Of a stretch of 64,000 bases of DNA, positions 5,508 through 56,099 are shown piece by piece. Location: NCBI RefSeq assembly GCF_039555335.1, contig NC_092631.1, positions 8,320,481 to 8,384,480 of the forward strand, written 5' to 3'. The translations under genes were made by a program, and so were the position numbers. The notes under the pieces are model-generated. The model saw only the letters and a list, made by a program, of their open reading frames with translations. It made no database searches and was not told where the DNA came from. This DNA is from Amphiura filiformis (Eukaryota; Echinodermata; Ophiuroidea; Amphilepidida; Amphiuridae). The first letter of the stretch is position 1, and every line of letters begins with the position of its first letter.

Positions 5508-5531
5508 ATTGGTGGTAGCAGTTGTCCTCAA

Positions 5532-15257: not shown

Positions 15258-15980
15258 CATGCATTACTTTATAGTACATAGTCAATACGGTTGTTTCCAC
15301 AAATCTCCTACAACTAGTCAGTCCTGATTTTTTAACACTGTTATATTTATTGTATCAGTTTGTCTGAGTCTCATAAAGTCAATAAAAATTCGTTAAACAA
15401 AATTATGCTTTCAATTTCATTTAATAATATATTTTTAATCATTATTAGCATTCGAGAAGTAAGACTAAACTCGTCATAATTTATATATAAATATGAATTG
15501 TCTCAAAATTTGGTTGAAAAGTATAGATTTGAAGTGAAAATATTCCAATAACTGGTATTGATTTTATCTCTCTTATAAACGAAATCAAGAAAAAAGACTT
15601 TGAAAGTTATTTTTTTAACGCATTTTGGGCATATTTTTTGTTCTAAATTGCTCAAATTAAGACCGAAATACGCTAAAATTGCTCCTATAAAATGCGTTTT
15701 ATCTCCGGGAAACAAACTTTGTTTAGCCTTGCATCTTGCTTTAATATCACTCAAAAATTAGGATAACATTTGATAATAAATAAATACTAGTATCTTGTAA
15801 TGTTTAAATGTCATTTATATTAAAATTTTTGAAATTTAAAAGTTTGGATCAGAGCCCGGAGATCAGAGTGCTTGATATCCTCTTTGTCTTGAACGATGAC
15901 TTTCTGAAACACTCTGCGACTTCACTCTCTTAGTATTCAAAGCGGCCCAGATAGGCCTACTTTTCCTCCAACATCTCCTC

Positions 15981-17217
15981 TCATCGATGTAACAGGTCTT
16001 GCAATATCTTTGTATTCAGGTAACTACTTAGAAAGAATTCCCAGTTAGCGTACGGGTCTTCCTTTGCTGGATATGCTGGCTTTGTACATCGAAATTTGCC
16101 AGAAAACAGGTTCAACAATCTCCAGAACTTCTTTCGCTTTTGCTTTCTCTGAAAAGACAAAATATTGATTGATCGAGTTACAGATGGTACGTAGCAAACG
16201 ATTTAAAAAAGCACCGATGCGAAAGTAAGAACACAGTCAAACAATTTGAGCCCATTTTCTTTGAAATCGGTGTAGGCCTACTTTTAGTCTTTGACCCCCT
16301 GTGTGGCCAAAAAAGCTGACCTTTCGGCATATAACTCAAGAACGGTAAGCCTATGTCACAGATAGGTCAAACTATACTTTTTCTGAATCGTTATGACCAG
16401 AAGAATACTTTCGCGTGGTTTTTGACAAAACCTGAGCAAGTTTGAAAGTTCAACTGTTGTATGAAATTTGACCCCTGTTGACCCTAGCCTAGTTAGGGAC
16501 AATTTTTGAATTTTGTAACTTACCGTAGCTTATCATTTTCTACGCATGTTTTCTAATCTAGAAACTTCTAACTAAACTAATAATAATAGCGATTGTAGCG
16601 CCGTAAGAAGACCAAAAGCATCAAATTGAACAATTGAAAGCAAACTCACCTCATACTTTGTCCAACTTTCCAGATGGGCTTCGATGATAATGTTAAACTG
16701 TTTGACCTCTTCTACCTTTTCTTCTATCTTTTTTATAAGGCTATATAGAGCTGTGTTCCTCTCTATGAGAATGCTTCGATAGAAGTCATCTGTTACATTG
16801 CTGATCAGATTTTCGTTTAAATCCACAAGAAGCTTCAGGCTTTCGTGATTTATCATATTTGATGACGCAAGATTGGCTGTGCTGCGACATCTGAGGTACG
16901 CAGTATTGTTGTTGTTGCTACACCTAATTTTCGTGAAAAGAAGAAAATTGCTCCATAAATATCGTCGACTTTTTCAAATTTTCTTACATGCTTAAATGAG
17001 TTAGGCCTAGTATAGGTACTTTTGATCAATTATTCTCCCATCAAATATGCGCACCATATGGCTGAAATATATCACTATCAACATTTTACATCAACATTAA
17101 CTAAAGTTTAGTTTTTAAATATTTAAAGAAAAGAATATTTAAAACTTACGGTGCCATCGCTTGCAGACTCCGATTCATCATACTATTGGCTAGAGCAGCC
17201 TTCAAAAGTGAATTCAT
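15981..17217 (-). CDS. Orphan three-exon gene, copy B (about 169 aa)
   Basis: Tandem paralogue of 12205-13451. Exons are 17150-17217 (68 bp), 16650-16923 (274 bp) and 15981-16148 (168 bp), joined length 510 bp. Every splice site of copy A is kept. Differences are mostly single substitutions (for example SQQ to SLQ in exon 1, NEHL to NENL in exon 2) plus one codon fewer in the basic patch of exon 3 (RKQKRKKFW). The loss of exactly one codon and the lack of stops suggest that coding potential is conserved. The function is unknown. Confidence 0.65.
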
Positions 17218-17880
17218 CTTGATATTTTCGCTAAAAATCGCCACGATTGAGTATGAAAACTTTGCACAGGTGCAAAATTTATATGATTTTATGGTTTTTT
17301 GTTTGAGACGGTGGTTATTAGCAACCAAAGCGCGCGAGAGACCGCACAATTGTTGCACGCGCTAACCGCGCCATGCGCATTACGCATTACACATATAACG
17401 CAACGTATACGCAATATACTTTAAAGATCAGAGGGTGCATGGCGGACGATTTGCTGGCTTTTTAAAATATTGGTTTTTCTGTTTCCAACCTTTTGCGGAC
17501 GTTATACAATGTAACCAAAACATTTCGTGTTTGCTGGTGATCGTGCTTTTGATCAAAAACACAACTTGTTGTTTTTAACAAGTGAACAAATTTAAGAAAA
17601 AACATTTCTACAATTATTATGTAAGTACAATTTTCTGGTCAATAAATTGCATCTTACCTTTTTATAACTTCTCATTATTCAAGTACGACCCCAAAAGTAT
17701 ACATTCCTCGAAAGGAAAAAGCTAAGAAATAATAGAAGCGCAGAATTAAATTGTAAAAACAGCCATTTTTTGTTTTAAAAAAAATTGTTATTTAAATTTT
17801 GCCTTTGGCCTATTTTGGTCAATAATTTAAAAAATGAGGACGATATTAAGATAAGAAAAAAACCCCGAAAGGTTTTTTAG

Positions 17881-21197: not shown

Positions 21198-21208
21198 TCA
21201 CCAGTTCT
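21198..21208 (-). CDS. Candidate terminal exon of the mosaic lectin gene
   Basis: The acceptor 'attttctgacag' is followed, in the phase left by the previous exon, by codons for E-N-W and then TGA. Ending just after the C-type lectin fold is sensible. With so few coding bases the call rests only on the acceptor and phase. Another exon further left cannot be excluded. Confidence 0.35.
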
Positions 21209-24200
21209 CTGTCAGAAAATAAAATCCATGAAAATATTCCATTTAATTATGATCACAAATATATACAATAATCATACAAATAAACAGAATTCACTTAGCT
21301 CATTTTGATCATGATGTAGATGGTTTTATTATAAATGAGGCAAGTTGCAGTACGGTATGTCTTCTATCTCATATGACGTATATTAGAGGGTTATTTCGTG
21401 ATTATATCATCTTAGGCCTTAAAACTGATTTGTATTGTCTTTTCGGCCGACCTTAAAATCTGAAAAAAAGGGTCGCATGTTTGCGTATAGTATTAAATCA
21501 CGTATACTCAAAATACGCTGACTCAAAGAACTGGCCACGCGCCGAATCAAAGATGGTACATGCGCGAAGTAAGGCAAAAAAACACCCCAAACCAAAACAA
21601 ACAAAAAACAAAAACGTTGTTTGCTTGTCCTCGTCCGCCCGACCGTAGAACTTTTATTTTGAAAAAAGTATTTTTTTTTAAATTTTCCCAAAAAAGTCAT
21701 TGACTTTATGTTCTGAAAAATTTAAGATATAATAATCATCCTCAGTGTCCACACAAGTAAACCATTGTGTATTTTGCCAGACATGCCAAATGTCAAATAA
21801 AGTAGGATTTACCTTGAATTTGTCTTTGGTGAACATTCTGTGGTCAGTGAGTTTTTTACATACATACAAGTACTTCACATTATACTTCTGTTACTTTTCC
21901 CGACCGACCGACCCAACTTCTGAAAGTGATCTATGGACAATCATATCCGGCAAAGTATTGACATCACTCCCTCCAGAAAGCCAAACGGACTATAATGAAA
22001 GACAAAGATAAAAAGACTAGTTTGCGTCTGACGTCACTGTCAATCAAATTCTCTACGATCCTTGATTGGCTAATAGCGCGTATAAGGAAGGTCGATTCAT
22101 CTGGTGCCGATCGGAGAAAAGGAATAGCAGCAAATGGCGAAAAATTACGTACTATTACAAGGCAAAAAGCAACTTTTCTAGGCATTGTTGACATGGTGCC
22201 TTCGCGAAAGAAAGTTTCCTACTATTGAGACCTAACTGTTGAGATGGTTTGTATGTTTAAAGGTGCAAAATTAACAATAAGGCGCCCGGTTTTACCGCCG
22301 TGTTCAGCAACTCATATCATCACGGCACTTGTAAACAAACCGTGCTCGAGTTTGATTGACAGATGACGTCAGACGCAAACTAGTCTTTTTATCTTTGTCT
22401 TTCATTATAATCATAGGGGTATGGTACTGGGAAACTTACCAACTGGATCAATGTGCTTGGCTTGCTTGCAGATGAGTGGTAATACACCTTGGCAAGGATA
22501 ATCATTCCACAACCAAATAGCGTCTTCGTCAAAATCAGCTAACTGCGTACAATCCTCCCCTTCGCCGTAATCATTAGGTTCTCCTGGAGACCAGGCAGTG
22601 AAGTTGACCTGAGAAATTATTAATGAAAGTGGGAAACCTATGCATCATACATCACACTCATGATACTCCTACAACCACCAACACAACGCATGTATCGACC
22701 GGGAAAAACAAACAAGCAAACAAACATACAGATAAAAAAAATAGTTTTGATAGGGATGAAATCAAAACTCGACCACCAGTTCCGGGCTTTTCCGTTCGGT
22801 TGGAGCAGGTTTCCATTGTTCTAAAAATGGAACGCGGTTCAACCCTCGGTAACCACCGGTCCCTTAACATATAAAAGAAATGTTGGACGAAGTTAATATA
22901 ATAGTTTAGCGTATTACCTCTGTGCCATCAGTCCAAAGGAAATAACTTTCATTTCTAATGTCGTTTAGTCCAATCCAAGAACCTGAAGATGGTATTATTC
23001 CTAAATTAAATAAATGATAAATATAAAAATATATATTTATAGGTATCCACAACTAAAAAGTTCCCCCTAATGCTTTTTGAGATAAATTGTACGTCATATA
23101 TCATTGTGGTAAGTCACAATGGCTCATTATGTAAAAAAGAGGCCGTTTTCAAAGTTGCACCTTAACAAACACATGATAGGTCTTTATATCTGGCCTACTA
23201 TATTGTTTGACGATGTGATGGGATCTGAGCATGTTATTTTTACCCTATTTCTATAGCTGCTGTCCTCCTACGCATCAGTGACGCAGTCGGGGGCAGCTTC
23301 CCCGTGTGAGAAGTCTTACCCCTGTTATTTACGATTTTAGCCTTTTTTTGTACTTTTTAGCCCATCAAAGTTTGCCCCCTTGAAAGTTGCCTTACCACTG
23401 GCATATTGGTACGAGTCAAGTGTTAACAAATTGTTTTCTCCAAATCTGCCACCCAATGACACCCGTTTTTCAAAAGTTTACACACAATGCCACTATAATG
23501 TATAGAAGCTACACCCAATGATTCCCTTATATTTCCCCCGGATATTTTCATTATTATCTCAGCATAGGTGTTCAATATTCCGGTTTAAAGGGAATTTTTA
23601 TTCAGTTTAGCCGACTTTAGCTTGCACCAGGACTAACAAACTAAATCTAAATTATTAGAAGTCTACAACTCACCTGTGACAAAGTCTTGTTCTGACTGAC
23701 TATGAATGCTGACCAAACTGCCGCCAAAATCCTCGCATGTTGTGAGAGAATCAGAGAAAGGTTTATCCACAGTACTCACAAAATAACAGGTGTCTCTAAA
23801 TTCACTCCAATCCTTGAGACAGGCCCTCTCTGTGTGAAAAAATAAGTTGACGATACAAAGTAGTTAATCAATACTGGTGTCATACATTTTGCTAGCTCAT
23901 TGAGTAATATGTCCAGAATGGGGTAACGTTGACAAGCAATAGGGTAAATTTGCAAAATTATTTCTTTCCAGAGAAAACCAGCATCCAATATTAACAGATA
24001 TGATAGAGTTGACCTGCAAAATGTTACTCCTTTTACGATACGCTAGGTACAGGGGCTATTTTAACGTGCCTCCTGGCACGTTTGTGCAGTAAGATTAAAA
24101 ATCCGTGCATCGAGAATTAAAAATCCGTGCTTAAAATATTTCTATGCCATTCAAGTTTCAACTCAGTCAAATGACCAGGAAATGAAGTTCTTCCGCGAGG

Positions 24201-27200
24201 TAAGATCGAATCGCAAATAATATTAAGAGTGATATTTAGTATAGTTTTCCTCTCAGTAAACAATATTTTTTTATTCAACCAAAAGTTATAACGCCTAAGT
24301 AGGTAAGAGTCTAGATGGTAAGAATCACTTCAGTGGTTGAGTCTGTGGGTGGTGTGTGTGTGGGGGGGGGGGGATAACCGGATTCATTACCTCCTAATTG
24401 ATACATGCTAATTCTCAATTCTCCACCACAAGTTTCATTCGAATTTCCACTACAAACCGAGCTGCATTCGGTATCTGATCTATTTTTACTGATTAAGTCA
24501 TCAGATGCCACCTCAGAAGCGCACCAGCAATCTGTTGAGTTTTCCATTCCAGCATAAATCATAGATTTTGACCAACAGAATTTGATACATGTATCTAGTG
24601 TGATGTCCTCCGTGGATGACGTGAATTCATCCGGCAAAATCCGACTGGTGGTATTGTCTTCGTAGCAACCAAGATACAATGGTACTGGAGAAAATAACAA
24701 ATACATCAATATACAGTATACTTCCGCAAGAGATTCACAAGACTATGATACTAATTTATTAATAAGTATTTACGTTTAAATGCTTACCAAGTACCAAGAA
24801 AATATACCTTAAAATATCAAATATTTTAGTCAAAATTGAAAAAGGTTTTCCTATGTTCTTAAAACGAAGAAAAAATTCAAAAAATTGAGAAAAAACTTTT
24901 TAGTATTATGTCTTTAGAACACAAATATGCAATTTTCGTCAATTTGGATATTTAGGGTAAGTTGCTATGACAGACCGAAAAAAGAAATTGGCATGGAATA
25001 TCAATTTTGGCGCTTTTCTGAAAAACTGCTAATTTTTGTAGAAATCTGCCGTGCTAGTTGGATTCCTTGCATCATTTCCTTTTTGAGAATGTAACTTTTA
25101 TATACTTATGGTCATTAATTTTAAAGATACAATACAAAACAATATCTAAAATTTCTCTCTTTGAGTGATCCTGCCTGCCCCCTTAAGTGCAGCAATCATT
25201 GTCGGTAAATGCCCGCTAATTGGACTAATGTATTTGTACGCAGAATCGCAGATAAAATTTTTAAATGACAACTACAATAGCAAATTAAAAAAGCAGGTCC
25301 TTAACACTATTTACCTCCGCAATTGGTACCATTTCCGATCATCTCATTTGGACAAGATCCGCATAGATATTCAACAGACGGAGGAGACTCATCGATACAT
25401 GTGACTCCTGGATAACAAGGATTACCAGCGCAAGAGTCATAGTCTTCTAAACAGTTGCCGCCACTATATCCTGGATTACACTTACAGCTAGCGACCTATG
25501 CATTTAGTGCAGAATATCGATATGGAATTATTATATACGTATTACATTAAAAAAGGATTCAACCATACTCTGGTAAACCAAATGGTTCCATGACATCTGT
25601 CTACTTTTAGCAAGCAATTGCCCATGGCGAAGGCTACTTTTTGGATCTTTTTGGAAAGCAGAGTTGAATAAGTTCATCTCATGTAACTAACTCAACATTT
25701 AAGTCACACACTCCGTATAGCTGTGTTACAAACTAAGTCATCTTAGGAACAGATACAGAATACATGGATAGCCCACCATCTTGCTATCTCAGCTCAGAGA
25801 TGCTTTTAACTCATATGTCTTCAAGTAGATCCATTTATATCGTTTTCAACTGTTTTAAAAAACATCTTTAAAATGAGTAGCACATAATAAGGAAATTTGC
25901 AAGCCACGTTTTTTTTATCATGAAAGGCAAGGAATAACTCATGCATGGGCTAAATTATATTTAAACTAAGTGTAAATAGTGCCCTCAATTTGCACACAAT
26001 ACAGTTCATAGAATAAACATTACCACAAAAAGGCAGAAAAAGATGAACAATTAGATAAAGAAAAGAAAATCTAAGTTAAAATAGCTAAAACTATATTAGT
26101 GTGATAGCTGTTGGTATTGCAAAGGTCTAGAAATGAAAATGATGTAATGTTTTGTTAGAAACATTGATAAATGATCACGTCAAACAACCATGGAAGTTGA
26201 CAGAAGAAAATTGGTTAGAATAAAGGGAATGTAATTTAATATGGTGATACGTAATGAATTATGACAAATTGAAATACTGCAGATCCGGGGGGTCACTCCC
26301 ATTGTGGCATGCATGTACACCATCCGCGATAATCAACTTTTGAAAAGCACCCTAAACAAGGATTTAACCCTTGGCTAAAACAATACCCTAAACAGGTGTT
26401 TTCACACCCTAAACAGGTATTTTATTCAAATTTCATACCCTAAATTTCATTTCCGCGTATTAGCAATTGCAATTTTGCTACCCTTTTTTCCAGTATTTCA
26501 TGTTTTTGACACCCTAAACGCGTTACGCGCGTATCGTGCCTACCCACGAAAAACTACCCTTTTTACGCGTTTTTATTATCGCGGATGGTGTACAGGCCAC
26601 AATGGGAGTGACCCCCGCGCTGCAGATATTCACTCTCATGAAAAGTACCTACCGAAAAAAGCTTATCACTGGATTCCGTACCATTTATGATTTCGGCAAA
26701 ATTACATGAAGAATTTTTGTTACAATTGCATATCCTGACTGGATACTGCCATATAGCGTCTGGTTCTTTCTCTCCGTCATATGTAATTGTTATTGATATG
26801 TCAACGTGTGCAGTACTTGTAGGTCTCCAAGTCATTAAGCCACCTGTGTTGGAGTCAATCGTGGACCAGATTATATCGTAAAAATTATGTGCCCATGAGT
26901 TGATAAAAAAAATACAAAGAATTATTCACGCTTTCAGCATTTTGATGTGGTATATGCACCAGTTAATGATATTTATGGTATCCAAAATATAAGGTAAAGT
27001 GATTATTTCTTTGGGGACATGTAACGTAAATTCCGGCACCTTGAAACTGTGGTTCTAGTACCCCAACATGGCTCCTATAACATGTTTAATTAAAGAATAA
27101 AATAGTCCAGGAGCAAGTGGTTTTGAAACTGGTCGGTCGTCATTCAACACCCATGTCAACCAATTTATGGTTGTCTCTTATTTATAGCAATGTATCGACA

Positions 27201-30200
27201 CCAAACATTCGTTAGAATATAAAAATCATTGAAACAGATTGAATAACGAATACTTGGAGAGTGCACAACATCGAATAAACCAACGTCTAAGCAAATATGT
27301 TTTTCTAAGCACTTTACAGCAGCCAAAATCAACATTCAACAACCCAAAAAGACATCATCATCCCCGTCATCATCTTCCGTGATATGGTGGGCACATGAAA
27401 ATAAAATCAATGCCTTATAAAATATAAGAGCCGTCTCCACACTATAAGCGTTCTTACCTGAGGTTAAATGAATGTCACTGTGAGATTTCATGGCCTCTCT
27501 CCAAAATGCATGCGTCAAAGTTCTATTATTTGCATCAATATTTGGATATTGTATGACATATTCGTTGCCTACTTCCACGGTGAAGATATCGGTTGCACCG
27601 CCTTTGTAGTCACTTGGTATCAAGACTTTTTTTCCAAATACAAGTTGGAAGTCTCTCTCTAAATTGAACAGGGAAATAAAATTTAATAGAACAATTTTAA
27701 TCTCCAAGAAAGGTTGTGCAAGATTTTTAACACCAAACAATCAAAGTGTTTCCTGAGACAACCGCATATAAAAATACAACAATCGTAGAATATTGAGCCT
27801 AAGCTTGGTCAGTTGGTAAATTAAACTTTGCTGAATTGTACCGAAACAATGTGTTGCATTGTGGGAACACGAGCTGACCACAGTTGCTGCCGTTCACTGC
27901 AAGCACAAACAAATTACTCATTTTGCGATTACATTTTCAAAAACTTGGCTGACAACATGTTTTTCACCTTTTCTTTATTTATGTTAGGCACCATAACCAA
28001 GTTTGTTCGATCTTTAGACCGACCGTCGATGCTGCTTCGATGCTCATTACTAATGAACTAACAACTAATTAATGAGAATTAATGTTATATTTATACTGGT
28101 AGGCCTATACATTTACATCAATACATACTAAGATTCATAATGTTATCATAAATTAACAATAGTCAATTGATTTCATAAATGATGAGGATCGACTAAGCAT
28201 CGATGGTCGATCGAAAGATCGAACTAATTGGTTTCTATTGCCTAATAAATAAGTAAATGACTACGGATATACCTCAAGTCAAATTCATGTGACTACTTTC
28301 ATCTTCATATAAAATCGGAATAAGAAAAAAAACCCAGTTGTATTTTTCCGGGTATTTTTCACATTTGTGAGCTGTTTTGTGTACAAATGAATATAAAATA
28401 TCGTGTGACGGCCGATCGAAGCCGGAAATTAGTAATCCTTATTATCTAAGTGTTGCAAGCCAACATGACAACAAATTCAGTCACTCACACTGTAAATCTA
28501 CTTTTAGAATTTAGAACTTTCCGTATATTACTGCGATCATACTCCTGAGCAGAGTCACCTAAAGGAAGAACAATGTCATTAAAAGAATTCTTGAATACCT
28601 TTGATTCCTACTGTATACTGGCACTGCACGGATTGTAAAGTTGTGAACGTTGCATCGCACGTAACATTTACGACATCGCCAACAAAATACACAGAACCAG
28701 GCTCAGGAGTACAGGAAAAAGACAACACCTCGTCATTTGCTGCTCGGAAGACGGGTTCTTGATCCGGGAGAAAGCCGACGAATTGTTTGTAAACAGAAGA
28801 CCAGAATCCATAGATGTTTATGTCAACTGGGCAGTAGAAGATGAGATCTTCTGCAACTGTGAGGAGATAAGGAAGAAATGAAACACTTACAACATAATGG
28901 TTCGTCATTCTCTCTGTCGCATGATATGAACTGGAATATGACGCAGTCACGTATCGCAAGACACACAAGACAATAACACTGCTCGCAGTGAAAGATGCAG
29001 CGGCCTATAGAGGTGCCCATCCTCAGCCCCATTGTTTCAAATACTGTCAGTAAGCAATCACCTGCCTATCCTGCCATACTGTTTTCGTACCTTTTTAAGA
29101 CCGAGAATTACAATAAATTATAATACACATAGGTTTTTTGCTATATGAATAATTCCCGGGGATTTGCCATTTGGTCTAATACCATTTGGTCTAATATCCA
29201 TTTCGTCTACATCCATTTCGTCTAAACCCATTAGGTCTATATCCACTACGTCTAATAATCATTTGGTCCTTTAACCATTTGGTCCGATAACCATTTGGTC
29301 CGATAACCATTTAGTCTAATAACCAATATGTCTAAAACCATTTAGTCTAAAACCATTTAGTATAATACTCATTTGGTCTATAACCAATAGGTCTAATAGC
29401 CATTTGGTCTAATAGCCATTTGGTCTACACACCATTTTGTCTTACAGGCATTTAGTTTATTAATAAATAGACGAAATGGTATTAGACTAACTGGTTATTA
29501 GACCTAACGGTTATTAGACCAAACGGTTATTAGACCAAACGGTTATTAGACCAAATGGTTATTAAAGAAATATTAGACCAAATGGTTATTAGACTATATG
29601 GTTAGTAGACATACCGGTTATTAGACCAAACAATATTAGACTAAATGGACATTAGACTATATGATTATTAGACTAAGTGGCAATTAGCCTTTCTGGTAAT
29701 AGACCATTTGAATATAGACTAAACAGGAATTAGACGAAAAAATGGTATTAGACCAAATGGCAATAGACCTAATTCCCGAACCAGTTTTTAAACGTTTCCT
29801 CTAAATCAATCATTTTTCAATAATAAATTAAATTATATGTAATAACATATTGTGATCAATAGTATCAACGGCTTTTGACAAGTCCAAGAATATTAGAGTT
29901 TTTTCCACCGACTTTCTTATTTGTCAATGTCATAATAAGTAGTATTATCAGATGGTAGGTCTGAACCAACTTCTGACCATGTGTAGTAACTTAAATTTGA
30001 GCAGATTTGTGCGAAAGCCTCCTTGGACGCACTCGCCGCCTAATCACATGATATATCAGCATGAGCAGCTTTCCTGGCAACGAAAAGTTAAATGTAGTAA
30101 AAATTCTCAAATCTGAGATGGAAAACATAAGTGCCCTGATACAATCGGGTCAAGAGTGGATTCCACAGCTGTTCAGCAAGACGTAAGAGTCTATTTGCCT

Positions 30201-33200
30201 GCTGTAAGCAGCTCAATCAGCAACCTAACAACATGCGATAAGCCTATCAACATGATCAATGAGTTCATACAACCAACAATGTCGAAATTGAGAATAACCA
30301 ACTACCACTCTGCAATAATTGTCTCTATAGAAAACATGTAACAGGATCTACGTATCAGGCAGGCTGTCATTTGGCGGCCCAGGTAAAATTAGCCATGAAC
30401 ATGCTAAATAGAAAATACTAGTTCAGTGAACAATGGTTAGAACAATGTATGACAAAGAGATCTTGAGGTCAGAATCACCAGGTCATCGTAGAATCTCTTT
30501 GTAGCATGTAAATGTCCAGTAATCTGCAAGATGGCCGATTGTGGCCGCTTATGGAGTTCCGAGCAAAATGTACAAGTCAAATAAGAATGTGATAACGACG
30601 ATCGAAGCAGGTGACAATGGCGACGAACCTGCAACAGGTTACGCGCGTTCGATTCCCGAATGGTATAGACGCTTGAATCTATCATAGTATCATAAATGAA
30701 TATCATATTTATTTCAACAAACTAGCATAATAGTCTGTGACATTGTTTTCTCAGCAGGTATTTTCCTGCAAAATATATTAGACTGGATAAATTACGATGA
30801 TTTCTACATTCGATGAAACAATAGTTGTCACACTTTGAAAATAACCCAATAGAGTCTACTAAATTGAAGGGAGGCCAACCGAATATGACGGGATAGGGAG
30901 GTCCGATTTTAGAGGCAGGTGGAACATAACTGCTTTGCTGAGAGGTTCAAACCTTTCCTGAATCCTTCACAATTCCCCCACAATTGAATTGAGGGAAAGG
31001 GTTGACGACTTTAATATGTCAGAGTAAGCAAACATTATTTCCTTACTGTAACTTACCTAATGTTGTCAATAATAGGTTTGTTGTAGGTATCGAAGTGGTC
31101 GTCATCTCGGTCCTCTCTGCAACAATATGGTAATTACATATGGGTAAATATTATCATAAATATAAAAATCAACCGCATGATGCACCCATCACAAAGAGTA
31201 CCAATTCACTCAATCATTACTAGTATTCTTCCTTCATCCTTTCTCATGGTATAAATTATAGTGAAAAGAAAACTTGCACGAAGAAATCTTTTACTCACAT
31301 TAAAATTAACTACGGAATATCAATATGTTATTAACTGGAACATTGCGTACTATAGGTCGATATGTTTGCGTTGCTTGCAATAGTAGTTGATTATTTTGAC
31401 AAAATGTGTATAAGATTTTTTTCTGTTCAGTTGCCTTTTTCTTGGAATTTATTGACTGGATGATGTTTTTATCGTCCGACTAAATACGTTGATTTCTAGC
31501 TTACCTAGGGTTGTCGGTGGTGACGCTGTGGTTGGTGGCGCAGTTGTCGTTACCTCTGCAACGATAATGTAAATATTATCCAATTTTGCTTTTATTGTGT
31601 GTCAATAAGATGATCATTACAAAAATTGTATAAATTATAGTAAAAACCTTACATGTTAACATTCATTCAAATTAAAAATTCGCTACGAAATGTCAGAATC
31701 TTAAACTGCAATATTACCGAATAGGTCGATATATTTGCGTTGCTTGCAAATGAAGGGTAGTCTACTATTGCAATTGTGATCATTCCATGTCCAAGTACCA
31801 TTGCCATCTAAATCAGTAATATACACGCAATCCTCCCTATTACCGGAACCATTGGGTTCTCCTGGAGACCAGGCAGTGAAACTGACCTGAAATGTAATAG
31901 AATTATAAATATTATACATGAAAATGGTTAAGTCGGTACCCTGCGCGCGTCACACACACCCACAATCCATACACTACCCCACCTCACCCACACAATATCA
32001 CGTCAACACGTCCCCACGCATACACACAACGATTTACATAATTCAGTGCCAGTGGATGTGTCTGAAACGAAATGAAAACAAAAAGACCACACAACACACC
32101 TACGACACAAACCCACCAAGAAACAAATTACGCAGTTAAGTTTGAAAAAAGTAGAGTGTTAACACCCTGAACTTCCAAATGTTCTGTAGCCGTTAGAGTA
32201 ACATTTATAACTTTTGTTGTGTAGCAAGCTTTTTTTGAGACGGGGGGGACAAAATTGCAAATGTACCGACAGCCTAAACACATCTTGAAAAGGTTAAAGG
32301 TGTCTTCTAAAATTTCCAGGACGTTCCGCTGACCCGCTCCTATAATTACTTTACCGAGAAAATTGCCCGCGAAGCGTGCGAAAATGAACCATTTTAATTC
32401 TTAAGTGAGCCAAACTTAAAGCCATATTATAACATTTTCAAACAAAATAGATTAGCATTTCTTTGCCATAAAATGTTAGCTTTTACTCTCAGATATATCC
32501 CTTTTATTTTTGAGCCGAACAACTACCGCAAAGCAAAGAAAATTGGAATTTACTACCAGCGGACATGTCGCCAATACGTACCACTCCTTCGGTCATGTTG
32601 TGGTACGACCCTTTGTTGTGTATATCACCGTCCCGCACGCCGTGTACGTACTGTGTGTTTTGAACCCGGTTTTGAACATCGTGTATGCGTTCGACTAATA
32701 ATTCCATCGTAATAATAAAGCGCCGAATCCGGCGTTTTATTCAAAATCTCGGATTTTGACAAAACTACAGCACCTAGAGTCTTGATTTTTGCAGGGTATA
32801 TTGGTTTAATAAAGTACAATTTAATCGTGTAAAAAGGAATTTTAAAAATCCAGTGAGGGCGTCTTCCTCAGCAAATGTTATAATATGGCTTTAAGTAAAC
32901 TCAATTTTAAACATCACATAATTATTTTTAGTTTTAGTGGCGTGTGGCAAAAGGTGCCGGCGGGTCGCAAAGTCTGTACTGTGAAGGGACGGGTCTCGGC
33001 TACTCTTTTGCTACGCCACTAACAAAAATGTGCTTTTCAAATACATCTTTGTAGAAAGCTTTGTGGAATCAAGTGTCATCCATTATGTTACCTCTGTGCC
33101 ATCCGTCCAAACAAAATAACTTTCATTTCTAATGTCGTTGAGCCCAATCCGAACAGATGTTGAGGATATCATCCCTGCAACAGCAAATAAAACAAGGTAG

Positions 33201-36200
33201 CTTATTTATTATAAGAAGATAATTATGTTCCATCATATCAAATACCGTTAACGATCATGACGATGTTCCATCATATCAAATACCGTTGACGATCATGACA
33301 ATGTTCCATCATATCAAATACCGTTAACGATCATGACGATGTTCCATCACATCAAATACCGTTAACGATCATGACGATGTTCCATCATATCAAATACCGT
33401 TAACGATCATGACGATATTCCATCATATCAAATACCGTTAACGATCATGACAATGTTCCATCATATCAAATACCGTTGACGATCACGACGATGTTCCATC
33501 ATATCAAATACCGTTAACGATCATGACGATGTTCCATCACATCAAATACCGTTAACGATCATGACGATGTTCCATCATATCAAATACCGTTAACGATCAT
33601 GACGATGTTCCATCATATCAAATACCGTTAACGATCATGACGATGTTCCATCATATCAAATACCGTTAACGATCATGACAATGTTCCATCATATCAAATA
33701 CCGTTAACGATCATGACGATGTTCCATCATATCAAATACCGTTGACGATCATGACGATGTTCCATCATATCAAATACCGTTGACGATCATGACGATGTTC
33801 CATCATATCAAATACCGTTGACGATCATGACGATGTTCCATCATATCAAATACCGTTGACGATCATGACGATGTTCCATCATATCAAATACCGTTAACGA
33901 TCATGACGATGTTCCATCATATCAAATGCCGTTAACGATCATGACGATGTTCCATCATATCAAATACCGTTAACGATCATGACGATGTTCCATCATATCA
34001 AATACCGTTAACGATCATGACAATGTTCCATCATATCAAATACCGTTAACGATCATGACGATGTTCCATCATATCAAATACCGTTAACGATCATGACGAT
34101 GTTCCATCATATCAAATACCGTTGACGATCATGACAATGTTCCATCATATCAAATACCGTTAACGATCATGACGATGTTCCATCACATCAAATACCGTTA
34201 ACGATCATGACGATGTTCCATCATATCAAATACCGTTGACGATCATGACGATTGGAATTTGCAACAAAAAAAAAGGATAATTCAGGGATTGCGATGACAT
34301 TAGAGAGTTTGCGATGTTTCATACGTCTTAAGGTCCGTTCATACTACCACCGCATTTGCGATGCGTTCTTTTGCGATGCGATGCGTTGCCGCACTGCACC
34401 GTACTACAAACTACTGCATTGCGATATCGCAATAAAGTTAAATACATTTTAACTTGGAAATGCGACGAGTTGCGTTGAGTTGTGGCAAAAGCAATCGATA
34501 TATCGGCATCGCAAAGCAACGCATCGCAAATGCGGTGGTAGTATGAACGAACCTTAAATTATGTTATTATCCAAATATTCTTTTTGTGGAGAAAAGTAGT
34601 CACGTTGCATGAACCATGTACAAAACGATCATTTCAACGTCGTGCGTGCGTTAAGGTTCGTTCATACTACCACCGCATTTGCGATGCGTTGCTTTGCGAT
34701 GCCGATATATCGATTACTTTTTGCCGCAGCTCAACGCAACTCGTCGCATTTCCAAGTTAAAATGTATTTAACTTCATTGCGATATCGCAATGCAGTAGTT
34801 TGCAGTACGATACAGTGCGACAATGCACCGCATCGCAAAGCAACGCATCGCAAATGCGGTGGTAGTATGAACGAACCTTTAGGCGGGGAAGTTTGTGTCA
34901 AAGGTGTGAATCGCAAACTCTTTTATTATACGGGGATATCTCACACACAAATTAAGGAACATTCTCGTCAAGCTCTTTGTGAGGTTTTTCCATGGTCCCT
35001 TCAGCTCCACATAACACCTTGTTTTATATGAATCGTATGAATGAAAAAAGTCGCTTCTTTGTTTTCCTTTCAATATATACAAACACATTTAACTGAAATA
35101 ATCATGCATGTTTACAAGAATTGAGTTGTCGTCTAACCTGTGACAAAGTCCTGTTCTGCCTGGCTATGAATGCTGACCATGCTACCGCCGAATTGTGCGC
35201 ATGTTCTGAGCGCATCATTGAACGTCGTCTCACTGGTATTCAAATAATAACAGGTGTTTTCAAATTTGCTCCAATCACTGAGACAGCTTCTCTCTGTAAA
35301 AGGGAATACAAATATAAAGGTGAGTGTACAGTGCAGGTGCAGGTGCACATGCACACGACCATGACGACACAAGGACCTCGGTATGACGAAGACCAAAACG
35401 CAAGGCCTCTGAATGCATCGTAAAATGGTGTCTATCATTCCGTCTGTAGTTAAAAAAAACGTCTGTGGCTTGACCTTATGAAGAATATTTCGGTATTCAT
35501 TGGTATTACCGATTATGTGGGGCCTAATTAACATGGTGACACACTGACAAAAGAGAGTCATTTTTAGGTCCTCGGAAATATGCATGGTTGTAACAAGTCA
35601 CAAAAATTCAGGTCGGATCAAGTCAGGACTTATTTTTAACTCGAGTCAAGTCACTAGAATCACTGTACAAATTCAATGGGGTCAAGTCATCGAATATCAA
35701 TCGAGTCGGAGACCCCACTTGACCTCGAGTCCCAAGTTATGACTCGTTACAACTCTGACTCGTTACAACGCTGCAAATGTGTGTAATGCACGGGGCACAC
35801 CGACATCGCCTGGCTAATAATTACTTTGTCAGCAGAGATACTAAAATAAATACCCGGGATCGATACACGTGAATTTGCTATGCACGAGTTTGATATGAGA
35901 AGAAAATCTTTGGATAGCGGTGTAGAAAATGATGAATATCTCCCGTAAATGATTTCGTATAAAGAAACCAGATGTGGTTCCTTGCACATGAATATATATT
36001 TTGAACAGATATGATAGTCGTTAGCTTGCGCTTTGAGACAGTAGCTTGCGTCTTGAGTCAAAAACTGACAATAATTCCGCAATAATTCTGATTTATATGT
36101 GCTGAATTATATAGCGCAGTGTATAGGCCAATCGTGAAGGGTGTCTAAAAATATGACCTATGGCATACCATGCTTGACTGACACACAGCGAGGTCAGTCA

Positions 36201-39200
36201 CCGAGGCAATCGGGGCTATTGTCAGTAGCCTTAGTCAGATGTCCTTCGGCCTATAAACTATTAAACAGGTCGATATGTATAATGGCCATGTGTGGCGGTG
36301 GATTCAATCTACCATGGCGATTTCTGCCATGAAGATATCGGGGCGATGTCACTGTGCGGGGGTGTTGTGGTGGAGGGTGTGTGGGGTGGGGTGATCTTGC
36401 GCTTGAGGACAATGCCTAGGTATTACCTCCTAATTTATACACGTTTATTCTCCATTCTCCACCGCATACATTCTCACGATTTCCTCTACAAACCGAGCTA
36501 CATTCCACATCTGGCCTTTTTTCATCTATATCAAATGCAGCTTTATAACCACACCAGCAATCTGTTGAGTTTTCAATTCCAGCATAGATCATATTTCGAA
36601 ACCAGCAGAATCTGAGGCATCTACTTAATGTCATGGTCTCTGTAGAAGACAAGAAATCATCCGGTAGAATCCGACTGGCGTCATTGTCTTCGTAGCAACC
36701 AAGATGCATTGGTACTGAGGAAGAATCAAATTTAATATACGTTTGTTTTATAAAGATTGAAAACATTGATACGTTATCAGACAATGTCCAGTGTTGAGAG
36801 CCAGAAAGCCTTAACTCACATTCACCTGCTTCTGCTCCTACTAAATGAGCATAAAATCGCCAGGACACTATAATAGAAGATATATATTGTACAATGAGCC
36901 TTTTAACAAGCCTAAAACATTCGTCAAATCCTCTCCCATTATCTTAAAAATAAAATAAACTGAGCTCAAAAAGAAACTTATAATTTTTTACAACTTGTGA
37001 ATCACAAGGTCATATTTTAAAATACTGTCAATCAAAATGAACCAAAATTACACACAGGATTACCTTAATACTCTACTCAAAACATATGTCAGTAACCAAG
37101 CAGTTGTCCGACACAACAGCAAATGCACTGTCATGGGATAGCTTCCTGGACTTCCTTCACTTTCACAGCCCAACATTTGGCACCCAGGACAAAAAATCTG
37201 TGAGAATGCACACAAGATCCTTGTACAGATGATAAAACGGTGCTGCTTTCTGCTTTTCATACACTTTTTTCATGAAACAGGGCTGGGCTGTGAATGTGGT
37301 CCAGGAAGCTGTCCCATGTCAGTTCATTTTGCTGTTGTGTCAGTTGGATAACTGCTTGGCATGTGTTAAGAGTAGAGTATTGAAGTAAATCTGTGTGTAA
37401 TTTTGGTTCAATTTGATGGACAGGATTTCAAGAAATGACCTTGTGAAAAATTATAAGTTTCTTTTTTGAGCTCAGTTTATGTGTATATTCTGATTTATAT
37501 ATGGTATTCACATGGTAAATACATAAAATACTCCATACCTCCGCATGTGGTTCCATTTCCGACCATTCCATTGGGGCAAGGCCCACAGATAGGCTTAACA
37601 GACGGAGCAAGCTCATCAGTACAGGTTACTCCTGGATAACAAGGATTACTAGCGCAAGAGTCGAAATCTTTCAGAAAAAGTAACCAAAATCAAAAATGTC
37701 AGATATTATGGAAGGATAACTCGATTCATTGTATACACTGACTTAAACTTACTTCAAAATTAGATGTCTAATATTGTCTAAAACTCTCAGGTTAAATGTT
37801 GGTGGAAAATTATCTGAAATAGCTATTCATCCAGGTCCCACCATGAAAAACAGACTCACGTGTAGTTTAGTATGATTCATTAAAATAAATTGTAAATTGC
37901 TTAGAATGAAAATTAAAAGGAAATAATAGGCCTACACCAATTTGTGCTTCTTATAATGTATATATGCAGGCATATAATCGTAGGATGAGCTTTGATGATA
38001 GGAATCAATCTAAATAGATTGAAAAATAGATTGAAATGTATTTTTTGTTTTCACTCTAACTCTCTTTGTAGACTGATTTCACTATCTAATCAAGTGATAC
38101 ACTAATGTACTGCCAAATGACACGTGTTGCATATGTTTGGAATGAGATTTTGAACTGTTTTAGAGTGAAGATTTTCAATCTTTTTTTCAACTGGAAAGGA
38201 TTTGTCCCTAATTTGGGACGGCAAAAGATTGAAAAACAATGAAAATCGATCCTTTTTACTGAAAATTCAATCGAAAAAGATTTGCCCCAAACTTCAATCG
38301 CTAAAAGATTGTAAAAGATTGAGAATCCCTCCTTTTGATTGAAAAAAAAGTTTGAAAAATTCAAATCACCCGACTGAATATACAGTCGAAAATGATTTGT
38401 CCCTAATTTGGGACAGTGAGATTGAAAATTCAATCTTTTTGATTGAATATTCAATCGGGCAATTTAAGATGTCAGGGAATGTGCTTTTCTCAAGTTGGCG
38501 AACCAAGGACGATAAAAACCTTCTCCAAGCTCAAGGTCGCTACCTGCGATCGTTCAATCGCGCAAGATTGTTCAGAGGGACGGTTTATACTATTCCGTTA
38601 TTCATCGCTATGCGGAAATTACAATAATAAAAGAAGCACGAGAAGTGTTTATACGTACCGCATTCATATTCTATATGTAAGTACTTATCAGTACCAGAGC
38701 ACGGATCACCAAAAACTTCACTGCTGGCGTTTATATTACAGCTTTGTTTACCATCACACACTTCTTGAACAATAGCCAGAGAATTATTAGCTGCGCAGCT
38801 CAACGTATTCATATTAGTCGTTGGACAGAGGGTGTACATTTGTCTTCCGTACATTGCAGAGGTTATTATGATACGTTCTTCGTTGTTACATGTTAAGCTA
38901 AATGTGTCACCCTCACAAACATACGGGATTTCTATGAAGAAAACAATATTGATAAATATGCAAACCAAATCATCTTGTTGAACTATACACGGCAAATTCC
39001 AAGAACACACTATTAAATATAAACGTAGTTTTACAGAGGCGGTATAACACGGGAAATTCACACATTCTGTAAATCTCTAGCACTTTACCTTCTTTTCCTT
39101 GTTGTAAAGCTACAGGTTAAAATCCTTATGAATTCTACGATCCCTTATCATCGGCCATTTTTGCAAATTTCCTAACAAATCTAGTGCCGGCTAAATAACC

Positions 39201-40628
39201 ACAAAAGTTAATTAGCTGGCAGTAGATTTTATAGGAAATTGCGAAAATGGCCGTTGATTAATAGGGAATCCGTAGAATTAAGGATTTTAGCCTGTACTTT
39301 ACAGAATTCTGTGTTATTTTCCCCGTTATTTTCCTTTACACATCTCTGTAAAACTACGACGTACATAGTTTTATAACATGTATCACCATGACATCGGACG
39401 CATCCACGCTAGCGTTCTGTACCATGCATCCGAAGTGTTCAAGATTATTCTGATTTCATGATTATACACCAAAGAATAATGACAAGTATTTTGGCAGATG
39501 ATAAAATACAATGAATATATGGATAATTTTTTCAAAAGAGCATGACACAAATTTCTGATGTATTCTAAATCTATTACATTTTAACGCATCACATTGTGTT
39601 GTCAGGTGTTGAATTTGATTTATTGTTCAAATTTAGGCCTATGTAAAAGTTTAAAATGTCTTCAACCCTCACTTTTTTGTTCACTATTTCGAAGAAACCC
39701 TTCTCCAATTAGGCCTACTACTTTTTTATGTAACAAAATAAAATCACATGGTTTTTTTTGTAATCTAGTAAAGACGTTCAATAGAATCTACTTACGTGCA
39801 TTTATATCCGGTGTGCAGTTTCCAATTACCTAAAGTAGAACAGGTTTGAAACGTTTTAGCTTAGTAGGCCTAGTAGTCAATTATTTGAGTGAGAGGGAGA
39901 GAAAGAGGAAGAGACAGGGAGCGAGAGGGAGAGAGATGGAAGAGGGGGGAGGTGAGAGGGGGTGAAATGGAGAGAGAAGAGAGAGACAGTTCATCAATCT
40001 TGTAGTCACTATGTACCGTAGAATTCCATGCCTTTGAATGAGTGGGGGATTTTTTGACGAAAGAGACGAGAGGCAGACACCCTCCACAAAAACATTAATT
40101 GGAATTTGAACAACTTTATTTCCTGATACAGGAGGCTGTACAAACATGTATCATTGTAAGACCAATCTATTGTAATGTTTTTTACTGTATCTGCCTTTCA
40201 TCTCCTTTGTCAAAAATACTCATTTAGAAGCATAAAGAATTAAAGATACAAAAATACCTTACCTCTCCGTTTCTGTGAACGTGTGCGTAATCGTCATCGT
40301 CATTACATCGATCGTCTGCTTCCAAACAAACTTCAGAATTCATCTCACACACTCCCAAATTACGCGCGAAATTAAACGACAGACACCTCGGATCATGAAG
40401 GCAACTCGTAGCGCACCGAGACTGCGTTTTGACGTTGTTGTAAGTGCGAGTTTCACTGGTTAACATTCTCTTACCATGAACAACATGAAAATTTGCAGAA
40501 CATTGATTGATTAAAGATGTTACCATGGGAATGAATGTGACAAAAAACACGAAATATGTGACACTGAAATTCATGAAATCTGTCATCCTCAGCTTTATTG
40601 CACCTGTTTTTGAAGACATCTTGTACAT
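21198..40628 (-). CDS. Secreted mosaic lectin: PAN, SUEL lectin, EGF, WSC and C-type lectin domains, with HYR (about 1048 aa)
   Basis: The gene model has 19 exons. Joined they give 3147 bp, an exact multiple of three, with phases matching at every junction. Approximate residue order: signal peptide and PAN/apple domain 1-133; SUEL (rhamnose-binding type) lectin 134-224; EGF-like 225-267; WSC 268-363; C-type lectin 364-499; Thr/Pro-rich linkers 500-536; HYR 537-620; Ig-like module 621-690; EGF pair 691-811; WSC 812-909; C-type lectin 910-1045. Both C-type lectin domains keep EPN and WND, the calcium and mannose-type sugar ligands. There is no transmembrane helix, so it should be secreted. Likely roles are glycan recognition in immunity or in matrix (inference). 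Alternatively this could be two tandem genes split between 31057 and 28850, but no stop, start or signal peptide is seen there and the phases join. The terminal exon at 21198 is the weakest part. Confidence 0.75.
21991..22409. mobile_element. MITE with about 50-bp TIRs and TA target
   Basis: The left end 'tataatgaaagacaaag...' through 'gcgtctgacgtca' is mirrored exactly at 22360-22409, with TA at both borders, suggesting a Tc1/mariner-type or similar element. Open frames inside are by-products. It lies about 30 bp from the splice donor at 22439. Confidence 0.75.
22440..22608 (-). CDS. Lectin gene exon: second C-type lectin, C-terminal part
   Basis: Acceptor 'atttctcag' and donor TTG|GTAAGT. 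It encodes SPGEPND (EPN), [11 protein letters not shown] (WND) and PLICKQ, the calcium site and last disulfide of a C-type lectin domain. Its length of 169 bp is identical to its paralogue at 31718-31886. Confidence 0.85.
22918..23000 (-). CDS. Lectin gene exon: second C-type lectin, middle part
   Basis: 83 bp, starting phase 1 and ending phase 0 at GAG|GTAATA. It encodes SWIGLND (the conserved WIGL core), NESYF and WTDGTE. Same length as the paralogue at 33092-33174. Confidence 0.85.
23674..23829 (-). CDS. Lectin gene exon: second C-type lectin, N-terminal part
   Basis: 156 bp, phase 1 at both ends. It encodes [24 protein letters not shown] and EQDFVT, the first two cysteines and helix 2 of a C-type lectin fold. 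Same length as the paralogue at 35138-35293. Confidence 0.85.
24391..24684 (-). CDS. Lectin gene exon: second WSC domain
   Basis: 294 bp, phase 1 at both ends. It encodes a complete WSC domain: [41 protein letters not shown] and [10 protein letters not shown], with the eight cysteines of the family. WSC domains bind carbohydrate in several proteins (family knowledge). Confidence 0.88.
25315..25495 (-). CDS. Lectin gene exon: end of one EGF domain plus a following EGF-like domain
   Basis: It starts phase 0 and finishes the EGF begun in the previous exon ([15 protein letters not shown]). A second EGF-like unit follows ([27 protein letters not shown]). The second unit aligns well with the EGF exon at 37539-37667. 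Confidence 0.85.
26285..26619. mobile_element. hAT-like MITE with perfect 8-bp target duplication
   Basis: It is flanked by CTGCAGAT at 26277-26284 and 26620-26627. Both ends carry 'ggggtcactcccattgtggc' in inverted orientation, and the interior has repeated 'accctaaac' words. The 8-bp duplication identifies hAT-type transposition. It lies about 35 bp inside the intron next to the donor at 26651-26652. Confidence 0.9.
26653..26843 (-). CDS. Lectin gene exon: end of Ig-like module and start of an EGF domain
   Basis: 191 bp, entering phase 1 and leaving phase 0 at TTTTTTCG|GTAGGT. It encodes [11 protein letters not shown], then [12 protein letters not shown], the first cysteines of an EGF domain that the next exon completes. 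A WxP module leading directly into a C-x-C EGF is also the arrangement in coral mucin-like proteins (recalled family knowledge). The acceptor 'caacacag' has a poor pyrimidine tract, so the left boundary is less certain. Confidence 0.7.
27458..27658 (-). CDS. Lectin gene exon: Ig-like/cadherin-like module of uncertain family
   Basis: 201 bp, phase 1 at both ends, acceptor 'gttcaatttag' and donor TCAG|GTAAGA. It encodes [25 protein letters not shown] and HLTSG. Together with the start of the next exon it reads as a beta-sandwich module preceding an EGF. No cysteines are present. Confidence 0.7.
27998..28228. repeat. Imperfect inverted repeat in lectin intron
   Basis: 'gttcgatctttagaccgacc' at about 27999 is mirrored as 'ggtcgatcgaaagatcgaac' near 28205-28224. 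Arms of roughly 50 bp; probably a decayed MITE. Confidence 0.5.
28599..28850 (-). CDS. Lectin gene exon: HYR domain
   Basis: 252 bp, phase 1 at both ends, encoding a single complete module: FYCPVDINI, then [21 protein letters not shown] and [10 protein letters not shown] in pieces. The CP...C-PGS-F-G...VTC...C-YTV pattern is the HYR (hyalin repeat) domain, an adhesion module first known from sea urchin hyalin. It is diverged, with no typical WT-PTA strand. Confidence 0.75.
29165..29775. repeat. Degenerate 'ccatttggtctaat' array that switches strand midway
   Basis: From about 29170 to 29460 units of roughly 14-17 bp read 'aaccatttggtctaat'. From about 29460 to 29775 the same unit is present in the opposite orientation ('attagaccaaatggtt'). 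The whole tract could fold into a very long imperfect hairpin. It lies in an intron of the lectin gene. Confidence 0.85.
29776..31056. other. Intron sequence, no extra exon seen
   Basis: I looked for further phase-compatible exons and found none I could support. A 'gttcgattcccg' word at about 30649 looks like a tRNA B box but lacks the rest of a tRNA. Confidence 0.4.
31057..31116 (-). CDS. Lectin gene exon: Thr-rich linker 2
   Basis: 60 bp, phase 1 at both ends, acceptor 'attgttgcag' and donor TTAG|GTAAGT. It encodes about 20 residues, including [10 protein letters not shown] and LTTL, a likely O-glycosylated spacer. It resembles linker 1 in position and ends. Confidence 0.65.
31505..31555 (-). 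CDS. Lectin gene exon: Thr/Pro linker 1
   Basis: 51 bp, phase 1 at both ends, acceptor 'cgttgcag' and donor CTAG|GTAAGC. It encodes [15 protein letters not shown], a mucin-like spacer between the first C-type lectin domain and the second half of the protein. Confidence 0.7.
31718..31886 (-). CDS. Lectin gene exon: first C-type lectin, C-terminal part
   Basis: 169 bp, encoding SPGEPNG (EPN), [11 protein letters not shown] (WND) and PFICKQ. The calcium and sugar-binding residues for mannose-type ligands are intact. Donor TTCG|GTAATA, phase 1. Confidence 0.85.
32420..32890. mobile_element. MITE with TTAA target (piggyBac-like)
   Basis: The inverted ends AGCCATATTATAACATTT and its complement are each bordered by TTAA (32416-32419 and 32891-32894). 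The interior is non-coding, although short frames cross it. Confidence 0.7.
33092..33174 (-). CDS. Lectin gene exon: first C-type lectin, middle part
   Basis: 83 bp, donor GAG|GTAACA. It encodes [13 protein letters not shown] and WTDGTE. The usual Trp of the WIGL core is Arg here (VRIGL), unlike the second domain, which keeps WIGL. Confidence 0.85.
33225..34252. repeat. 38-bp minisatellite, about 27 copies
   Basis: Units of 38 bp ('ttccatcatatcaaatacc' followed by 'gttaacgatcatgacgatg') repeat head to tail with very few variants: gttaac or gttgac, gacgat or gacaat, catat or cacat. 1028 bp divided by 38 gives 27 units. It lies inside the intron that splits the first C-type lectin domain, 50 bp from the exon at 33092-33174. 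Confidence 0.97.
34331..34554. mobile_element. Harbinger-like MITE, family H copy 1
   Basis: 224 bp palindrome with ends AGGTCCGTTCATACTACC and complement, flanked by TTA on the left. Rich in 'gcgatgcg' words. The 3-bp TTA-type target fits PIF/Harbinger. Three further copies are at 34654-34878, 59942-60156 and 60344-60556. Confidence 0.8.
34654..34878. mobile_element. Harbinger-like MITE, family H copy 2
   Basis: 225 bp, TTA on both sides (34651-34653 and 34879-34881), same ends as copy 1 and only 99 bp away from it. Confidence 0.85.
35138..35293 (-). CDS. Lectin gene exon: first C-type lectin, N-terminal part
   Basis: 156 bp, phase 1 at both ends. It encodes [28 protein letters not shown] and EQDFVT. 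Nearly every key residue matches the exon at 23674-23829. Confidence 0.87.
36210..36360. repeat. Dispersed repeat fragment matching 60-215
   Basis: Shares 'gccatgaagatatcgggg', 'gtccttcggcc' and neighbouring words with the left edge of the window. It lies in the intron just left of the WSC exon. Confidence 0.5.
36427..36714 (-). CDS. Lectin gene exon: first WSC domain
   Basis: 288 bp, phase 1 at both ends, acceptor 'attcttcctcag'. A complete WSC domain with eight cysteines: [41 protein letters not shown] and [10 protein letters not shown]. Closely related to the exon at 24391-24684. Confidence 0.88.
36956..37480. mobile_element. Foldback MITE in lectin intron
   Basis: Arms of more than 100 bp ('ataaactgagctcaaaaaga' and its complement) surround a short centre. 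It lies between the WSC and EGF exons, 58 bp from the latter. Confidence 0.75.
37539..37667 (-). CDS. Lectin gene exon: EGF-like domain
   Basis: 129 bp, phase 1 at both ends, donor GAG|GTATGG. It encodes [20 protein letters not shown] and GNGTTCG with six cysteines. It is the paralogue of the second EGF-like unit in 25315-25495. Confidence 0.83.
38040..38470. repeat. Degenerate palindromic repeat rich in 'gattgaaaa'
   Basis: Words 'cctaatttgggac', 'attgaaaa' and 'tcaatctttt' recur in both orientations. Probably an old foldback element in an intron of the lectin gene. Confidence 0.45.
38659..38931 (-). CDS. Lectin gene exon: SUEL (galactose/rhamnose-binding) lectin domain
   Basis: 273 bp, phase 1 at both ends, one complete domain. 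It shows [17 protein letters not shown] (the YGR motif), CDGKQSC, and [16 protein letters not shown] (the DPC and KYL-V-Y-C motifs), with eight cysteines. The family was defined from a sea urchin egg lectin and binds rhamnose or galactose. Confidence 0.9.
39105..39302. mobile_element. Small hairpin MITE in lectin intron
   Basis: 'gctacaggttaaaatcctta' is mirrored by 'aaggattttagcctgtac' at the right end. About 200 bp, non-coding. Confidence 0.65.
39796..39829 (-). CDS. Lectin gene mini-exon between PAN and SUEL domains
   Basis: 34 bp between 'ctactttag' and GCAC|GTAAGT. It encodes [11 protein letters not shown] and converts phase 0 of exon 1 into phase 1 used by the rest of the gene. The tiny size lowers certainty, but both splice sites and phase fit. 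Confidence 0.65.
39895..39990. repeat. GA-rich simple repeat
   Basis: A run of (GAGAGG)-like purine sequence in the first large intron of the lectin gene. Confidence 0.7.
40263..40628 (-). CDS. Lectin gene exon 1: signal peptide and PAN/apple domain
   Basis: 366 bp, ending phase 0 at GGAGAG|GTAAGG. The start at 40628 is the first of several in-frame ATGs; the hydrophobic segment [16 protein letters not shown] follows. Then come [27 protein letters not shown] and VCEMNSEVC, the cysteine pattern of a PAN/apple domain, which binds protein or carbohydrate ligands. Confidence 0.8.
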
Positions 40629-56005: not shown

Positions 56006-56099
56006 AATGTTCAGGTCGATAAGAGTAGGTAGTTCTTGTAAAATGAAAAAGCCATTGTAAATCACGATGTCTTGCTTGCATGAATTCTTGATACTTTGA

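Follow-up and report, generated by a model that had tools for sequence, protein, structure and literature searches.

What does the minus strand between about 21 and 41 kb of this window (the whole stretch of DNA analysed, 64,000 nucleotides) encode: one secreted chain that combines several kinds of lectin domain, two neighboring genes, or part of a larger membrane receptor? The window is eukaryotic in character, with domains split by introns, and a preliminary description had joined phase-matched exons into one 3147-bp frame. We rebuilt the gene independently from domain matches and splice sites and obtained exactly this frame. Read from the ATG at 40628 and including a 34-nt exon and an 11-nt last exon, it spans 3147 nt and contains a single stop, at its end. 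The resulting model has 19 exons, most of them phase-1 (Table 1). Two in-frame ATGs lie in the first exon, that at 40628, which the preliminary description had used, and that at 40586, which gives the 1034-amino acid model analyzed here. Splice sites were scored with generic matrices, whose scores are meaningful relative to each other only, and the chance rates for exons and acceptors come from a 71.4-kb control drawn from the same window.

Table 1. Exons of the proposed lectin gene, listed from its 5' end (positions within the window; E-values and splice scores as evidence).
Feature	Position	Strand	Evidence
Exon 1: start codon, signal-like stretch, PAN	40263..40586 (start at 40628 in the preliminary description)	-	PAN_1 9.6e-7; donor 7.1; ends in phase 0
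34-nt bridging exon, phase 0 to phase 1 (tentative)	39796..39829	-	best of five candidates; about 0.09 expected by chance
SUEL lectin	38659..38931	-	SUEL_Lectin 3.1e-23; splice sites
EGF1, thrombospondin-like	37539..37667	-	71% identical to EGF2
WSC1	36427..36714	-	WSC 1.1e-17
CTLD1, N-terminal part	35138..35293	-	joined CTLD1 Lectin_C 8.4e-25; copy of 23829-23674
CTLD1, middle, RIGL instead of WIGL	33092..33174	-	tblastn 4.6e-12 to CTLD2 middle exon; codons
CTLD1, C-terminal, with EPN and WND	31718..31886	-	splice sites, duplication, motifs; donor weak, -0.6
Thr/Pro linker 1	31505..31555	-	splice sites 3.2 and 5.4; 0.014 such exons per kb of control
Thr-rich linker 2	31057..31116	-	splice sites 1.7 and 6.4; 0.042 such exons per kb of control
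HYR-like (weak label)	28599..28850	-	own HYR profile 7.3 bits; donor weak, -0.2
Possible cadherin-like, first part	27458..27658	-	open frame; splice sites 2.6 and 7.5; label tentative
Possible cadherin-like, second part, into CxC segment	26653..26843	-	phases 1-0 suit neighbors; label tentative
End of EGF-like segment and EGF2	25315..25495	-	PDB thrombospondin-2 1.1e-4; acceptor weak, -0.1
WSC2	24391..24684	-	WSC 5.1e-20
CTLD2, N-terminal part	23674..23829	-	joined CTLD2 Lectin_C 5.9e-23; splice sites
CTLD2, middle, with WIGL	22918..23000	-	part of joined CTLD2; splice sites
CTLD2, C-terminal, with EPN and WND	22440..22608	-	splice sites, motifs
11-nt terminal exon of the preliminary description, with stop	21198..21208	-	acceptor 3.7; no better than chance

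The preliminary description had proposed a Pfam search of the joined translation. With the 1034-amino acid model, this search recovered two Lectin_C domains (4.6e-46), two WSC domains (2.3e-32), SUEL_Lectin (1.3e-21), and PAN_1 (1.4e-5; 25.2 bits, where the cut-off is 21.4), but neither HYR nor EGF. PAN_1, SUEL_Lectin, and both WSC domains were also matched by their single exons, while each C-type lectin domain (CTLD) is spread over three exons of phases 1-1, 1-0, and 0-1, which match Lectin_C when joined; the middle exon of CTLD1 was located by using that of CTLD2 as the query. The presence of PAN, SUEL, two WSC, and two C-type lectin domains in the one frame is borne out by these matches, all above the Pfam cut-offs, and by the copied block described below. 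The claim to EGF domains fared less evenly: EGF2 resembles thrombospondin-2 and EGF1 resembles EGF2, which makes both thrombospondin-like, but neither received a Pfam EGF call in the exons or the joined model, the exon scan giving one match of 0.29. The model contains 66 cysteines and 21 N-glycosylation sequons.

The block EGF1-WSC1-CTLD1 recurs as EGF2-WSC2-CTLD2, with 64% amino acid identity over 271 aligned codons from five exon pairs. Between the halves, dN is 0.235 and dS 0.596, and 67, 49, and 83 differences fall at the first, second, and third codon positions, respectively. When the halves were compared by BLASTN, five matches were found, one per exon pair (EGF, WSC, and the three CTLD exons) plus short flanks, and they mostly overshoot the exon edges by 3 to 5 bases. 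The exceptions are the WSC match, which extends 26 and 30 bases upstream, and two matches that start within exons: that of the CTLD middle exons, 24 bases in, and that of the EGF exons, 49 bases into the longer EGF2 exon. Because the DNA similarity between the halves largely stops near exon edges, 10 of the 19 predicted exons are supported by the duplication independently of any domain library, and for these chance is excluded. Judged by the codon differences, both halves have been retained as coding sequence under purifying selection. The CTLD middle exons (33088-33150 and 22914-22976) are 92% identical over 63 nt, as compared with 71-79% for the other duplicated exons, which may reflect constraint or gene conversion. 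The CTLD1 intron at 33225-34252 holds a minisatellite with a 38-bp unit repeated 27 times (96% matches).

Searching the window by tblastn with 10 query segments, at E-values up to 0.1, returned nothing beyond the two halves except three weak matches (E 0.005 to 0.042). One of the latter, to the PAN exon, lies at 6768-6863 on the plus strand (36% identity over 33 residues, E 0.005). The window also contains a tandem duplication of about 3.7 kb at 11051-17501, the aligned blocks of which are 81-97% identical; it carries a 155-amino acid open frame (12748-13215), for which Pfam gave no match, and a 133-amino acid copy (16572-16973). Upstream of the lectin gene, also on the minus strand, a Kelch-like gene at 48471-56248 encodes BTB (9e-32), BACK, and Kelch repeats, and is presumably KLHL10-like. 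Rfam, applied at gathering scores, returned nothing within the window.

Between the phase-0 end of the PAN exon and the phase-1 start of the SUEL exon, the model needs the 34-nt exon (39829-39796) to restore the phase. It is the best of five candidates; equally good ones occur at 0.07 per kb of control, giving the chance expectation for the gap listed in Table 1. A competing phase-1 donor lies within the PAN exon, ending at 40475 (score 4.5), and would join directly to SUEL at the cost of most of PAN. Alternative splicing at this site could thus yield a PAN-less form, or that form could be the main product and the 34-nt exon absent; in favor of this, the small exon is otherwise required just for phase repair. 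However, 40475 falls inside the PAN match and its donor is weaker than that at 40263, and we consider a PAN-less product of either kind unlikely, if credible, and retain PAN at the N-terminus.

Whether the two halves belong to one gene depends on the stretch that joins them. The two linker exons have summed splice scores of 8.6 and 8.1. Phase-1 exons scoring at least 8.5 and at least 8.0 are correspondingly rare in the 71.4 kb control (Table 1), the second kind having a chance expectation of about 0.11 in its gap. The end of linker 2 and the start of the HYR-like exon are both in phase 1. Weak splice sites are found inside the model, at the donors of the CTLD1 C-terminal and HYR-like exons and at the EGF2 acceptor. 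The alternative is a pair of tandem genes, the first running from PAN through SUEL, EGF, WSC, and CTLD and ending after the Thr/Pro linkers, the second running from the HYR-like exon to the last CTLD, each secreting a protein with a single CTLD. Tandem gene duplication is common, which fits this view, as do the facts that the halves are duplicates and that a short last exon of the upstream gene, like the tiny terminal exon of the model, could escape notice. The preliminary description had named a start between 31057 and 28850 as the sign of two genes, and candidate first exons with a signal peptide do exist there, but they amount to two nested starts, at 29032 and 29020, that share a weak donor (1.5); in control sequence, start sites numbered 2 over 22.2 kb and 2 over 18 kb. 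Moreover, the strong phase-1 donor of linker 2 needs a phase-1 partner, which the HYR-like exon provides. We therefore regard two genes as improbable, and on these splice signals one gene, with a predicted single transcript, is favored. The intron between linker 2 and the HYR-like exon also holds, at 29167-29687, two adjacent arrays of 16-bp units in opposite orientation.

The three exons that follow the linkers carry tentative labels. The first of them had been called HYR in the preliminary description, and Pfam (exons and joined model) and NCBIfam both gave no HYR match. We built our own HYR profile from 80 bacterial loci found with an HYR consensus (652 aligned segments); all three members tested are HYR in Pfam. 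The exon's score against this profile was exceeded by 6 of 2000 shuffles, which is in favor of the label, but hhalign against the same profile gave a probability of 3.7%, which is against it. The HYR label is thus suggestive at best, and marginal. An AlphaFold prediction of the exon alone was uninformative (mean pLDDT 42.1). The next two exons may encode a cadherin-like domain followed by an EGF-like segment with a CxC pattern, an arrangement known from some mucin-like proteins. Neither this region nor the HYR-like one retrieved a meaningful PDB sequence match, and Pfam and NCBIfam had no match to the cadherin-like region. The preliminary domain list had not included this possible region, which would lie between the HYR-like exon and EGF2.

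Secretion was part of the same proposal. The N-terminus of the model is signal-like, with a hydropathy of 1.90, as compared with 1.25 for the next best stretch beyond residue 40. By hydropathy, then, the model has no other strongly hydrophobic stretch and would plausibly be secreted, with a tentative 3' end. The weak point is the last exon: acceptors as good as that of the 11-nt terminal exon occur about once per kb in the control, so this exon is not supported beyond chance and a membrane anchor may lie further on. The final CTLD2 exon has a good phase-1 donor (4.3). Furthermore, SUEL, WSC, CTLD, and EGF are all found among SpREJ/PKD1 proteins (PMC1934368, excerpt), and the gene could accordingly encode a membrane protein or a larger receptor, for instance of the PKD1/REJ type, with unrecognized C-terminal exons. 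However, Pfam found no REJ, GPS, or PLAT in the 1034-amino acid model, and below 22.4 kb there is no further Thr/Pro exon or well-scored phase-1 exon resembling a continuation; the two best candidates there fall in the open frame at 4.6-5.5 kb. A membrane-bound or larger product seems to us quite improbable, and we continue with the secreted form. Three open frames in the region below 21 kb were scanned by Pfam. That at 4614-5537, on the minus strand, encodes 307 amino acids with a signal-like start and Gly/Gln/His/Lys-rich repeats, has no Pfam match, and is a possible secreted matrix protein. The last intron contains an inverted repeat, spotted by eye, that spans about 425 bases (21988-22412) and is small-transposon-like.

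The preliminary description had credited the chain with three kinds of sugar-binding domain and with two CTLDs whose calcium sites are intact. Both CTLDs keep EPN and WND, with six cysteines each, so the calcium-site motifs stand; however, at the position of the WIGL tryptophan CTLD1 has arginine (CGG; RIGL), whereas CTLD2 has tryptophan (TGG; WIGL). EPN usually accompanies mannose binding. CEL-IV of a sea cucumber has EPN, yet binds galactose (PMC10377782, excerpt). The SUEL domain has eight cysteines, and its closest PDB sequences are SUL-I (5h4s, 5.7e-61) and CSL3 (6.7e-30). YGR and KYL, the motifs of SUEL or rhamnose-binding lectins, are both present. In SUL-I domain 1, rhamnose is contacted by Glu7, Asn71, and Asp76 (PMC10377782, excerpt). 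An ungapped alignment shows the equivalents of Glu7 and Asp76 to be kept and that of Asn71 to be serine, the residue being asparagine in five aligned SUL-I/CSL3 domains. Each WSC domain has eight cysteines, and the closest solved WSC (3.1e-13) is that of Kremen-1, a Wnt-pathway receptor; in the fungal lectin SiWsc3, individual WSC domains lack an obvious glycan pocket and seem to build the site jointly (PMC9024836, excerpt). Among animals, WSC is not established as a lectin domain. The chain has three recognizable sugar-binding modules, one SUEL and two CTLDs, but to speak of three kinds is too strong, given that the closest solved WSC is that of a receptor and that one of three SUEL contacts is changed. 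Going by the residues retained, sugar binding is partly supported.

Taken together, we assign a probability of roughly 0.6 to a single secreted, hinged, multivalent glycan binder with an internally duplicated block. One minus-strand gene would encode a glycoprotein about 1000 residues long, arranged as PAN, SUEL, EGF, WSC, CTLD, two Thr/Pro-rich hinge exons, HYR-like, possible cadherin-like, EGFs, WSC, and CTLD. Its exons are largely phase-1, and the sequence shows that the EGF-WSC-CTLD block was copied within it. The two EPN-type CTLDs would flank a hinge that could carry O-glycans, with SUEL near the N-terminus, and the lectin domains could bridge glycan-bearing surfaces, for example microbe to cell or matrix to matrix. 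For such a predicted glycan binder, candidate roles are recognition, as an opsonin, or a part in egg, matrix, or adhesive glue. A distinct possibility, to which we give appreciable but less than even weight, is that the product is a structural, egg-coat, or adhesive glue protein, not an immune lectin, whose domains mainly make protein-protein or homotypic contacts. Matrix and adhesive proteins often carry PAN, EGF, WSC, and HYR-like modules, temporary adhesives repeatedly combine EGF, SUEL, vWD, and discoidin domains (PMC10057474, excerpt), and positions in CTLD1 and SUEL are altered or damaged; against this stands the retention of EPN and WND in both CTLDs. The glycan binder could also be cast more specifically, as a block-duplicated, dual-specificity soluble lectin in which two mannose-type CTLDs flank a mucin-like hinge and are joined by a galactose/rhamnose-type SUEL, with CTLD1, its WIGL tryptophan lost, drifting toward a new ligand or a structural role. 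That this would be a bridging opsonin of undescribed build is, in full, a long shot.

The locus offers a clean example of how a mosaic lectin forms, from phase-1 exons and a copied EGF-WSC-CTLD block, and the sequence alone suffices to read the edges of that block. If the gene is expressed as one chain, its separate domains would allow one to test sugar binding by an animal WSC domain and the bridging of different glycans by two lectin classes. The preliminary description knew of no named protein with this exact order, and our full-text literature searches, which covered open-licence papers, agree, having found no paper with it. In the excerpted text of a Fugu C-type lectin survey (PMC514892), a whole-word search found no mention of WSC or PAN.

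Several known systems share parts of this architecture. In the PKD1/REJ family, CTLD occurs in SpREJ1-3, hPKD1, and hPKD1L2, SUEL in SpREJ3 and hPKD1L2, WSC in SpREJ6, 7, 10, and hPKD1, and EGF in SpREJ1, together with REJ, GPS, PLAT, and membrane segments; across SpREJ1-10, human PKD1, and PKD1L2 the shared domains stand in other combinations (PMC1934368, excerpt). We considered a PKD1/REJ identity for the shared SUEL, WSC, and CTLD, and dropped it: the model has no REJ, GPS, PLAT, or membrane segment, and adds PAN and the duplicated EGF-WSC-CTLD block. Members of the mannose receptor family (macrophage mannose receptor 1, C-type mannose receptor 2, and lymphocyte antigen 75) are among the best PDB matches of CTLD2. 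These proteins are membrane receptors with arrays of CTLDs, whereas the CTLDs of the model alternate with EGF and WSC. SUL-I and CSL3 have three and two SUEL domains, respectively; the model has one, set inside a mosaic and with Ser for Asn. The likeness to Kremen-1 lies in WSC; Kremen-1 is a Kringle-WSC-CUB receptor of the Wnt pathway (PMC5014086, PMC9024836, excerpts). Among echinoderms, WSC occurs with scavenger-receptor domains in sea urchin (PMC10855680, excerpt) and sea star (PMC5460417, excerpt), and a sea urchin adhesive unites SUEL, EGF, and vWD (PMC10057474, excerpt). Bivalve mosaic CTLD proteins are reported to combine CTLD, WSC, and other domains, as the model does (PMC10140915, excerpt). 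Mosaic lectins are familiar in animals and the known scheme is not overturned; with a domain order that seems undescribed, the model would be a new architecture of a known kind.
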